A stretch of 55,164 nucleotides of DNA. Origin: Kordiimonadaceae bacterium (lineage in GTDB: Bacteria; Pseudomonadota; Alphaproteobacteria; Sphingomonadales; Emcibacteraceae). Position numbers and translations under genes: made by a program. Below are positions 39,807 to 54,465 of the stretch, one piece after another. Numbering within the stretch: position 1 is the first letter of the stretch; the number at the start of each line of letters is the position of its first letter. The notes below the pieces were generated by a model. That model saw nothing but the letters and a program-made list of their open reading frames with translations, was not told the DNA's origin and made no database searches. The stretch is from assembly GCA_018675425.1 (NCBI GenBank), contig JABGYD010000057.1:98339-153502 (forward strand). The letters run 5' to 3'.

Positions 39807-40862
39807 ATGAGTTTATATGATTTCGCCAAACCATTTCTATTTATGCTTTCAGCAGAACGTGCACATAGTTTAGCTATTTCTGCACTTAAAATTGGTATCC
39901 TTCCGCACAGGAATATTAATAATTCTAATATACTTTCTCAAAATATATGGGGATTAAATTTTCCGAACCCTATTGGACTTGCTGCTGGTTTTGATAAAAA
40001 TGCTGAAGTGTATTCTTCTATGTTAAAAAAGGGTTTTGGTTTTGTTGAAACGGGTACAGTTACGCCTTTGCCACAGTCAGGAAATACAAAGCCTCGTGTA
40101 TTTCGTTTAAAGGCGGACCAAGCAATTATAAATCGTCTTGGATTTAATAATCTCGGACTTGATTATTATACTAACCAATTAAAGAAACGCTTGAAAGAAA
40201 ACGGTATAGTTGGAGCTAATATTGGTGCCAATAAGCTTAGCAGTGATCCGGCTAATGATTATGTTATCGGGCTGGGTAGGGTTCTGGGATTAGCAGATTA
40301 TTTTACCATTAATGTTTCTTCACCAAATACACCAGGATTGCGGGCCTTGCAGGGTAAAGAGGCACTAGACGATCTACTTCTAAAACTTAAAACTCTAAGG
40401 GACGAATTTTCTGTAAATTCTAAGTCTCCACTACTTTTAAAAATTGCTCCAGATTTAAATAAATATGAATGCGAAGATATAGCAGAAATAATCTTAAAGC
40501 ATGAAATTGATGGTTTAATCATAAGTAATACCACGCTATCAAGAGAGGGACTAAAATCACAATTAAAAGACCAAGACGGCGGTCTAAGTGGTGGGCCATT
40601 ATTTGAACTTTCTACACGAGTACTATCAAATATGTATAAACTCACCAAAGGTAATGTCCCTTTGGTTGGTGTGGGTGGTATCAGCAGTGGTTTAGGAGCT
40701 TATAAAAAAATAAAAGCAGGCGCTTCTCTGGTGCAGTTATATTCTGCGCTTGTTTACCATGGTCCAGGATTAGCGTCGAAAATTGCTGATGAACTTGAGA
40801 TTTTGTTAAAAAAAGATGGCTTCAGTAATATTACTGAAGCCATCGGTTTAGATCATAAATAG
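39807..40862 (+). CDS. pyrD: Dihydroorotate dehydrogenase (quinone), class 2
   Basis: This 351-residue enzyme oxidises dihydroorotate with FMN and quinone at the inner membrane. Signatures are NPIGLAAGFDKNAE, ETGTVTPLPQSGN, PRVFRL, NRLGFNNLG, INVSSPNTPGLR with the catalytic Ser, and LVGVGGISSG for FMN phosphate. The N-terminal helical extension (about 1-45) is the membrane-association part of class 2. Its last 15 codons contain a perfect palindrome that acts in the opposite direction (see the terminator at 40808-40844). Confidence 0.97.
   Translation: MSLYDFAKPFLFMLSAERAHSLAISALKIGILPHRNINNSNILSQNIWGLNFPNPIGLAAGFDKNAEVYSSMLKKGFGFVETGTVTPLPQSGNTKPRVFRLKADQAIINRLGFNNLGLDYYTNQLKKRLKENGIVGANIGANKLSSDPANDYVIGLGRVLGLADYFTINVSSPNTPGLRALQGKEALDDLLLKLKTLRDEFSVNSKSPLLLKIAPDLNKYECEDIAEIILKHEIDGLIISNTTLSREGLKSQLKDQDGGLSGGPLFELSTRVLSNMYKLTKGNVPLVGVGGISSGLGAYKKIKAGASLVQLYSALVYHGPGLASKIADELEILLKKDGFSNITEAIGLDHK
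40808..40844 (-). terminator. Rho-independent terminator for the DsbB-like gene, inside the pyrD 3' end
   Basis: Positions 40815-40844 are a perfect 30-bp palindrome (GATGGCTTCAGTAAT and its exact complement). On the minus strand it is followed at once by seven T (40814-40808). It lies 31 bp past the stop of the leftward DsbB-like gene. On the plus strand there is no T run, so it should stop only leftward transcripts. The bases are also coding sequence of pyrD. Confidence 0.8.
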
Positions 40863-51483: not shown

Positions 51484-51798
51484 TCATTTGGTCAAAGTAC
51501 AAATTTCAGGATGTCCGTCACAACAATCCTTTACAAGGTAATCAATAAAATTTTTTGTCGCTTCTATTTCAACGGTGTAAATTAAACTACGACCTTGTCG
51601 TTCAGGTTTTATTAAGCCTGCATTTGACAAAAGGTTTAGGTGTGAAGATAATGTATTTTGTGGAACTTTCAATTTTTCCGCTATTGCACCAGCTGCCAAA
51701 CCTTCTTGATTATATTTCATCAACAAACGGAAGACACCGAACCGCGTAGGCTGAGCAAGCGCTGAAAGAATTTTTACAGCAACAGGGTCGTTCATCAT
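51484..51798 (-). CDS. arsR: ArsR-type arsenic-responsive repressor
   Basis: The winged-helix protein has NDPVAVKILSALAQPTRFGV, the recognition region VPQNTLSSHLNLLSNAGLI and the C-terminal Cys cluster KDCCDGHPEIC, an arsenite-binding arrangement seen in proteobacterial ArsR. I start it at the ATG at 51798 (104 residues), 16 bp after the arsJ stop; an in-frame ATG at 51840 would overlap arsJ by 26 bp. It is the last gene of GAPDH-arsJ-arsR. It probably represses the operon from the palindrome at 54118-54175 and releases it on arsenite. Confidence 0.93.
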   Translation of the reverse strand: MMNDPVAVKILSALAQPTRFGVFRLLMKYNQEGLAAGAIAEKLKVPQNTLSSHLNLLSNAGLIKPERQGRSLIYTVEIEATKNFIDYLVKDCCDGHPEICTLTK

Positions 51799-51814
51799 AT
51801 CGTGTCTTTCTTTT

Positions 51815-53038
51815 TTAATCGGCTTTCTCATCTCTAACATTTCCGAGAGGAAAAGTAAGTACTAAAGCAATGAGCACCATAATACTTGAAATAATAAGAC
51901 AAGCCAATAACCCCCAATATTGGAAAATAAAACCAGATAAGAACGTACCTATTAGACGGCCTAAAGCGTTTGCCATATAATAAAAGCCAATACTTAATGA
52001 CGGTTTGTCAGCATCAGAGTATGCGACAATCAAATATGAATGGACTGTTGAGTTTACGGCGAATACGACACCAAATATCGCCAATCCAATCATAAGCCAC
52101 AAAGCTGGATTATATTCAATCTCTTGACCTGACAACCAGTCACTAACAATGTTACTTAGGCCTAGAGCAATAAGGATAGGAATGAATAGTAAGATAAAGC
52201 ACCACAGCTTTGCGGAAAACGTAACATGGCTTAAGCTTGAACGGTGACGAAGTAAATTAGGTACATATGCTTGAACAATGCCGTATCCAATAATCCAACT
52301 CGCCATGGATGCTCCGACCTGATTATAATTCCATCCAGCAGTGCTCGCTAGAAAGACAGGGACACCGACAACAAACCAAACATCTCGACTGGCAAACAAA
52401 AAGATACGTGCCGCAGAGAGGTAATTAATTTCTCTTGTCTTCGAAAACATTTCTTTGAACGTTACATTCTTTTCGGATTTACCCAAATCGTCTTTGAGTA
52501 AATGCGTACAAGCCAGAAGTACCACAAACAGTCCACCAGCCATAAGATTTAATGCGCCTTGAAAACCAAACTCTTGCAACAAAAGTCCACCAATAAAAAA
52601 ACCTGCACCCTTAAGTGCATTTTTAGAGCCTGTCAAAATAGAAACCCACTTGAATAATGTACCTTGATCATCCTCAGCTACGACTACTTTAACGGCCGAC
52701 TTTGAACTCATTTTCGTTAAATCTTTGGCAACACCGGAAAGCGCTTGTGAAGTCATTACATAAACTACCGACAAACTAATCGTAATATCGGTGGGCATTG
52801 CCGATAACATAAGCAACGCAACTACTTGAATGAATAACCCTGCAAATAAGGTCAACCTAAGACCGAAGCGCACACCAAGCCATCCACCAAACAGGTTCGT
52901 AATAATCCCCATCGCTTCATATAAGAGAAACAAAATTGCCAAATCTAATGGTTTATATCCAAGAGTGTGGAAATGTAACAGGACAAGCATTCGAAGCGCA
53001 CCATCTGTTATGGTAAAGCCCCAATAGGACGCTGTCAC
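51815..53038 (-). CDS. arsJ: Organoarsenical efflux MFS transporter ArsJ
   Basis: The polytopic protein (407 residues from the GTG at 53038) has about 12 hydrophobic segments and the ArsJ start TASYWGFTITDGALRMLVLL, then LFLLYEAMGIITNLFGGWLG. ArsJ exports 1-arseno-3-phosphoglycerate made by the partner GAPDH. The start is doubtful: homologous residues VRNYAVV continue upstream in frame, and a strong AAGGAG lies 7 bases before an in-frame ATT at 53065, while the ATG at 53070 is out of frame. The true protein may begin at 53065 or carry a one-base frameshift. Confidence 0.92.
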   Translation of the reverse strand: MTASYWGFTITDGALRMLVLLHFHTLGYKPLDLAILFLLYEAMGIITNLFGGWLGVRFGLRLTLFAGLFIQVVALLMLSAMPTDITISLSVVYVMTSQALSGVAKDLTKMSSKSAVKVVVAEDDQGTLFKWVSILTGSKNALKGAGFFIGGLLLQEFGFQGALNLMAGGLFVVLLACTHLLKDDLGKSEKNVTFKEMFSKTREINYLSAARIFLFASRDVWFVVGVPVFLASTAGWNYNQVGASMASWIIGYGIVQAYVPNLLRHRSSLSHVTFSAKLWCFILLFIPILIALGLSNIVSDWLSGQEIEYNPALWLMIGLAIFGVVFAVNSTVHSYLIVAYSDADKPSLSIGFYYMANALGRLIGTFLSGFIFQYWGLLACLIISSIMVLIALVLTFPLGNVRDEKAD

Positions 53039-53076: not shown

Positions 53077-54087
53077 TTATAACGATTTGGCAATCATCTC
53101 GGTTAAATCAGCCATGCGGTGAACATAGCCCCATTCATTATCGTACCAAGCATAGACTTTTAATTGTGTGCCATTAATTACCATAGTGGATTGTGCATCA
53201 ATGATACTTGAGCGTTTGTCGTTCAGATAATCTGCTGAAACTAAAGGCAGGATTTCGTAACCTAAAATATCCGCAAGGTATGTATCAGCGGCATCCTTGA
53301 ATAGATCATTCACTTCCTCAACGGTTGTTTCGCGTTTCAATTCAAAAACACAATCAGTTAAAGAAGCATTCAATAATGGAACTCGGACGGCGTGACCATT
53401 TAAAAGGCCTTTTAACTCAGGATAAATAAGTGATATTGCCGTTGCTGATCCTGTTGAAGTAGGGATCAAAGAGTTGACACAAGATCGGGCACGACGCAAA
53501 TCTTTATGCGGTGCATCAACAATAACCTGAGTATTGGTTATGTTGTGTATTGTTGTTATGCAGCCATGCTTAATCCCTAACTTTTCATGAACGACCTTAA
53601 CAATTGGCGCAAGACAATTTGTGGTGCACGAAGCCGCGGTTATGAGGTCGTGTTCACTTGCATTATAAAGGTGGTGATTGATCCCCATAACCAAGTTAAG
53701 AGCGCCTTCTTCACTTACAGGAGCTGAGACAAGTATTTTCTTAATGCCATTATCATAATATGGTTGGAGTGCTGAACGAGATTTGAATTTACCGGAACAT
53801 TCAATTACTAAATCAACCCCATCTGATCCCCAACCAATAGCTGCAGGTGTGTCCGCTTTGGAGTATAAAATATCCTGACCATCGATAGTAATATTTTCAT
53901 TTTTACAACTGATTTCGCGTGACCATCTGCCGTGGACACTATCAAATTCAATTAGGTGGGCGGAGGTTTCTGGTGAAGAAAATGGCTCATTAATAGCCAC
54001 AATAGATATATTTGGATGAGCCCAAATTGAGCGAAGAAATAATCTTCCAATTCTTCCAAAACCGTTTATCGCAATTCGAACATTCAT
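53077..54087 (-). CDS. ArsJ-associated glyceraldehyde-3-phosphate dehydrogenase
   Basis: The 336-residue enzyme has the NAD-binding [18 protein letters not shown], catalytic Cys in [11 protein letters not shown] (about 153), the His in TIHNITNTQ and the C-terminal WYDNEWGY. As the neighbour of arsJ it most likely uses arsenate in place of phosphate to make 1-arseno-3-phosphoglycerate, which ArsJ exports; this is established for ArsJ systems. The gene is the first of the operon, 38 bp before the listed arsJ start. It is distinct from the glycolytic copy expected elsewhere. Confidence 0.93.
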
Positions 54088-54117
54088 ATTTTTTTCTCGT
54101 GGCTATTTATATTTCTG

Positions 54118-54175
54118 TGATTAATAATTATTATATCTATATATGCCGATATATAGATATAATAATTATTAATCA
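54118..54175. promoter_or_regulatory. Perfect 27-bp inverted repeat upstream of the arsenic operon (candidate ArsR operator)
   Basis: Left arm 54118-54144 and right arm 54149-54175 are exact reverse complements across a GCCG spacer, ending 30 bp before the GAPDH start. Each arm contains TAATAATTATTA, itself a palindrome, and the centre is ATATAT-GCCG-ATATAT. On the minus strand TATAAT (54135-54130) would serve as a -10 box, so a bound repressor would cover the promoter. No T tract follows on either strand, which argues against a terminator. ArsR binding is inferred. Confidence 0.65.
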
Positions 54176-54352
54176 ATAAAATATTTTATGCACCAATTTA
54201 TACTAGTTAAAATCATATTTTTTATGTGAATGACTACCCCTGCACTGCGTGGGGTTGATTTTAAAAAGAGTAGGGGGGTAGGTGGTTTCGGGAAGAGAAT
54301 ATATCTAGTTTTATTTCTTTAGCTTGTTGCTAATTTGTAGCTATAAATAAAT
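54176..54352. other. Intergenic region between the arsenic operon and tRNA-Thr
   Basis: There is no gene here. It holds a G-rich patch on the plus strand (54250-54290) with pairing potential: CTACCCC (54234-54240) with GGGGTAG (54275-54281), or ACCCC with GGGGT (54251-54255). I find no matching second copy to call an attachment site. Confidence 0.4.
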
Positions 54353-54389: not shown

Positions 54390-54465
54390 TGGTGCCCCCA
54401 CGCGGACTCGAACTGCGGACCTACTGATTACAAATCAGTTGCTCTACCAACTGAGCTATAGGGGC
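54390..54465 (-). tRNA. tRNA-Thr (UGU anticodon)
   Basis: The minus strand folds as a complete tRNA of 76 bases with encoded CCA. The acceptor is GCCCCTA with TGGGGGC, the D arm AGCTCAGTTGGTAGAGC, the anticodon stem CTGAT/ATCAG with loop TTTGTAA, and the T arm GCAGTTCGAGTCCGC region. Anticodon TGT reads ACA and related Thr codons. No introns or mismatches beyond one G-T pair in the acceptor stem. Confidence 0.97.

Follow-up and report, generated by a model that had tools for sequence, protein, structure and literature searches.

A perfect inverted repeat with 27-bp arms lies over the likely promoter of a GAPDH-arsJ-arsR operon in this Kordiimonadaceae genome, and the whole is probably an ordinary operator with an unusual, accidental extension. 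In the joint explanation that we consider likely, the core operator would repress a single promoter, while the outer arms and the symmetry would be recent, most likely the product of a template switch. Below, we describe the repeat and its operon, the evidence that the core is an ArsR operator, and the evidence on the outer arms.

The repeat and its arsenic operon

The window, that is, the whole stretch of 55,164 nucleotides that was analysed, extends to the end of contig C63 of a 94-contig assembly, and the repeat lies about 1 kb from that end. The order on the minus strand is tRNA-Thr (54390-54465), its likely terminator (54381-54353), the repeat, the gene for an ArsJ-associated GAPDH (53077..54087; NF033735, 551 bits against a cut-off of 450), arsJ for the organoarsenical efflux transporter (51815..53038; NF033734, 550 bits, cut-off 400), and arsR for a repressor with a C-terminal CC...C triad (51484..51840; NF033788 for ArsR/SmtB metalloregulators, 64 bits, cut-off 55). 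The repeat is 30 bp upstream of the operon, whose last gene, arsR, overlaps the end of arsJ. GAPDH and ArsJ make and export 1-arseno-3-phosphoglycerate. We also observed a terminator-like hairpin on the plus strand at 54238-54254 (CCCTGCACTGCGTGGGG then TTGATTTTAA), located between the terminator of tRNA-Thr and the repeat; no plus-strand gene was seen to end there.

Among solved structures, 6j05 is the closest by sequence to the ArsR encoded here (E 6.5e-17), and the alignment includes the C-terminal CC...C. The cysteine triad was kept in all 18 of the alignment rows that reach the C terminus (20 rows in total, two being cut by the end of the locus), and by its own C-terminal triad the operon's ArsR is AfArsR-like. 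In A. ferrooxidans ArsR, the triad cysteines are at positions 95, 96, and 102, according to the available part of the source (PMC6555750). The triad points to As(III), rather than As(V), as the likelier effector.

Reading of the sequence and repeat searches gave a 27-4-27 inverted repeat at 54118..54175, in which the arms (54118-54144 and 54149-54175) are exact reverse complements over 27 bp with 0 mismatches, around a GCCG loop as read on the plus strand. When mismatches were allowed, the arms grew to 36 nt (92%; 54109-54144 and 54149-54184). An earlier note on this DNA had described such an exact repeat overlapping the promoter, with a smaller palindrome in each arm, and both descriptions were right: the sequence and coordinates are correct, the repeat does lie across the likely promoter, and TAATAATTATTA, a 12-bp palindrome, occurs at 54122-54133 and, by symmetry, at 54160-54171.

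Among 450,502 bases of the genome (the window and 20 other stretches), the 27-bp arms form the longest perfect inverted repeat with a loop of 0-10, the next longest perfect arms being 16, 15, 15, and 14. The longest perfect arm in 3000 first-order Markov sequences trained on 54086-54225 was 14. Arms of 27 bp are far beyond chance expectation. Two other repeats were noted in this genome: a loopless perfect palindrome with 15-bp arms at 40815-40844 of the window (GATGGCTTCAGTAATATTACTGAAGCCATC), and the second longest perfect inverted repeat seen, which has 16-bp arms and a 1-base loop and is directly followed by AATATGGAGG (L128:3440-3472). When the whole genome was searched on both strands with a 141-base query, the repeat region was found at a single place, and we therefore rejected an origin from a mobile element or as one copy of a repeated sequence.

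The core as a predicted ArsR operator

An ArsJ-associated GAPDH scored above the cut-off in 19 of the 32 genomes of the family, our own genome counted, and 80 further loci were kept from public genomes, out of at least 490 confirmed candidates. The upstream comparison drew on 99 loci, two of which were too short. The regions upstream of the operon in relatives contain a homologous AT-rich dyad, such as TTCTATATTTCAACGATTATTGAAATATAGAA in L013 of the same genus, whose site is identical to that of L048 (Kordiimonadaceae UBA4441); in arsR-first operons such as L005, the dyad TATTTCTATATTTCTGGAAATATAGAAATA lies upstream of arsR. Seven other genomes of the genus have the operon's GAPDH, and six of them have the site; the exception is L012, in whose contig just 146 nt precede the matched part of GAPDH. 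In L012 and L004, GAPDH-arsJ is present but no site could be recognised (the best scores being 1.5 and 0.2 bits, respectively), and no ArsR was found within the stretch available for either; the regulation of GAPDH-arsJ may differ in these two. Among the listed matches, no site common to the distant loci (cyanobacterial, verrucomicrobial, and others) was seen by eye. The 400-nt upstream stretches miss or partly reach the sites of the arsR-first loci L003 and L020, the L003 site being seen in the 21-site comparison described below, and the 400-nt stretch and score of L015 were left out, that stretch having been taken from the wrong strand.

The predicted operator core, TATATCTATATATC-GG-CATATATAGATATA on the minus strand (54132..54161), was placed with a weight matrix of relatives' sites and with the aligned sites themselves. 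It has a 14-2-14 layout with a C/C mismatch adjoining the centre. With a 28-nt weight matrix built from eight relatives, our own site excluded, the core scores 24.4 bits at 54161(-), which ranks first when both strands of the window, and of the 450 kb, are scored at every position; the best score outside the repeat in the 450 kb is 16.7 bits. The eight training sites, which were picked and anchored by eye (L012 being excluded as having no site seen, and L048 because it duplicates L013), scored 8.9-31.7 bits when left out singly in a jackknife; for L010, the reverse strand gives a better fit to the matrix (28.2 bits, versus 8.9 bits in the forward register). In the ArsR half-site model, the two halves of the core scored 15.5 and 13.1 bits.

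The site resembles the operators of relatives' ArsJ operons (Kordiimonadales and other Alphaproteobacteria, e.g. TATTTCTATATTTCTGGAAATATAGAAATA) both in place, lying between the first operon gene and its upstream neighbour and over the promoter, and in its core sequence. The longest perfect arms among the relatives' operators seen are 13-14 bp, as opposed to 27 bp here. The SmtB/ArsR 12-2-12 repeats, as far as the available text of the reports goes (PMC8790569, PMC6555750), are likewise imperfect dyads that lie over or close to the promoter of the operon they regulate. Compared by hand with their consensus, TAxAxTCAAATAxxTATTTGAxTxTA (PMC6555750), the site matches only 10 of the 20 fixed positions, short of the E. 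coli/SmtB-type 12-2-12 pattern, and its arms are extended to 27 bp.

From these sequence comparisons, we consider it very probable that the inner 30 bp or so is the operator of the operon's own ArsR. An ArsR operator at the promoter had been claimed for the repeat as a whole; the claim holds for the core, a conserved site in relatives, but not for the outer arms. A pattern scan of the genome for other sites of the same ArsR gave 105 matches versus 121 for the reversed control, none above chance. The other exact pattern match, in L034, was rejected as an operator, since by eye it seems to lie within a coding sequence.

The promoter was placed by its register in the relatives. TTGATT (54171..54176, minus strand) is the predicted -35 hexamer, with a TTG hexamer at identical spacing in six of eight relatives, and TATATC (54148..54153, minus strand), within the operator, is the predicted -10 hexamer. 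The resulting TTGATT-17-TATATC at 54176-54148 (-) has the 17-nt spacing from TTG to a TATWTC-like element that those six relatives also have, and transcription would start near 54141, inside the repeat. The earlier note had pointed to TATAAT in the arm as a candidate -10 element; this hexamer is present, but 17 nt upstream of it lies ATCTAT, with one of six positions matching TTGACA by hand, and the register backed by the relatives is the one given above instead. The dyad centre is about 4 nt apart between L006, L013, and L042 on the one hand and L002, L008, and L009 on the other, with the -10 element fixed. Half-site spacing is therefore uncertain, and it seems to differ from one genome to another.

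The outer arms and the origin of the exact symmetry

The outer extensions of the two arms (54118..54131 and 54162..54175) are not conserved in relatives. All 14 of the pairs 15-28 from the centre are matched here, compared with 1-6 of 14 at 20 other sites, where outer pairing did not exceed the cross-pairing of left and right arms taken from different genomes. Co-evolution of the outer arms across genomes was rejected, as there was no excess of self-pairing (2.40 and 1.60 of 7, our own site excluded) over cross-pairing (2.39 and 1.98). These counts are from 21 sites (our own and 20 others) chosen by eye from the 99 loci, with L017, L019 (near-copies), and L047 omitted; for L011, L043, and L015, the automatically set dyad centre seems misplaced (offsets -11, -14, and +12), and their outer counts weigh less. 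The TAATAATTATTA dyads and the outer arms are absent at the 20 other sites compared, and arms of 27 bp were seen in our own genome only among these sites. No further ArsR half-sites were found in the outer arms, where the best score, 4.8 bits, is at background level; over 200 positions of the window score at least 5.2 bits in the half-site model.

The best explanation of these data is that the outer 13 bp or so of each arm would add nothing specific to ArsR binding. The suggestion that three nested dyads bind several dimers is unsupported because the outer arms are neither conserved nor hold half-sites. Conservation of the arms in relatives that keep the operon had been proposed as a check, and here the two parts of the repeat separate: the core is kept and the outer arms are not.

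The nearest relative is L002 (GAPDH 82%, and ArsJ 86% over 144 residues on its contig). Among core pairs 1-14, pairs 3, 4, 8, and 9 differ between L002 and our genome. The four differences lie exclusively on the right side, and each of them restores pairing to the unchanged left side. An imperfect repeat in the nearest relative with pairing-restoring differences is the pattern of a quasi-palindrome correction, seen here against one relative. The right side of L002, CGAATAAGGAT, resembles that of L043, CGAATATGGAT, so that the right side in our own genome is probably the derived one. For the outer arms, our sequence and L002 agree at just 2 and 3 of 12 positions, and no earlier state could be traced.

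Template switching turns quasi-palindromes perfect, as described in the available text of PMC7202029. In such mutations, going by the parts available (PMC7202029; PMC8794818), one arm is copied and an imperfect repeat is thereby perfected, as would be the case here; the difference is that the event at our site is reconstructed from one near relative. We regard a template-switch origin of the outer arms themselves as an evenly balanced proposition. Perfect conservation of the arms had been taken to suggest selection or recent origin, and of these two the data favour recent origin in the case of the outer arms, which are unconserved in relatives.

Rival readings and proposed regulation

Could the whole 58-bp dyad have been selected, with at least two ArsR dimers binding cooperatively and repressing more tightly? 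The arms are perfect over 54 bases, and the core already has tandem half-sites about 8 bp apart, like the relatives' TATTTCTATATTTCTGGAAATATAGAAATA. Such an extended operator is nevertheless unlikely, given that the outer arms are missing at the 20 other sites and score at background in the half-site model. We hold it very unlikely that the repeat acts as a cruciform or structured leader and not as a protein site. As single-stranded DNA, it does fold perfectly (-20.1 kcal/mol, z -12.3), but the promoter placed by the relatives would start transcription inside the repeat, and therefore the RNA would carry one arm only. In addition, the fold of the predicted leader is no better than those of shuffled sequences (z 0.29), the stem is AT-rich and lacks the GC stem and U tract that a terminator would have, and the matches to the repeat in Rfam are microRNA models below threshold (of four Rfam matches, the tRNA alone was above its gathering score, and the other three were below theirs).

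The position of the repeat near the end of a contig in a fragmented, 94-contig assembly would suit a foldback artefact that created the symmetry, but on each side of its centre the core agrees with relatives, and the sequences on either side (the operon and tRNA-Thr) are unlike each other, and we give an artefact very little credence. Taken more generally, function in the outer arms, either as a 58-bp super-operator loading at least two ArsR dimers or as a cruciform switch under supercoiling, seems doubtful; if true, it would mean tighter or sharper arsenic control for the lineage.

We therefore return to the core operator with a recent extension. ArsR bound at 54132-54161 would cover the -10 hexamer and the start region and so block RNA polymerase. 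Arsenic at the C-terminal cysteines would free ArsR from the operator, leading to derepression, and upon this release GAPDH, ArsJ, and ArsR itself would be expressed from the single promoter. The outer arms and the exact symmetry would most likely have come from a recent template-switch (quasi-palindrome) correction during replication.

The closest system is the V. cholerae var operon (arsR-varG-varH-arsJ, that is, arsR-GAPDH-varH-arsJ), in which, according to the available portion of the report (PMC9601151), GAPDH and ArsJ are under one promoter, as here. That promoter lies upstream of arsR, is induced by arsenate, and is constitutive without arsR, and repression by the operon's ArsR was established with lacZ fusions and an arsR mutant. 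In the same portion, arsR is the first gene of the V. cholerae operon, whereas it is the last here, and the operon includes a putative phosphatase gene, varH; no operator sequence was seen there.

Taken together, the analysis offers a model of the predicted operator and promoter in the GAPDH-ArsJ arsenate-efflux operons of Kordiimonadales, in which the half-sites and their spacing are directly testable. The repeat is also a plausible natural example of template switching rendering a regulatory site perfectly symmetric, and symmetry that reaches past a conserved core is no necessary sign of added function.
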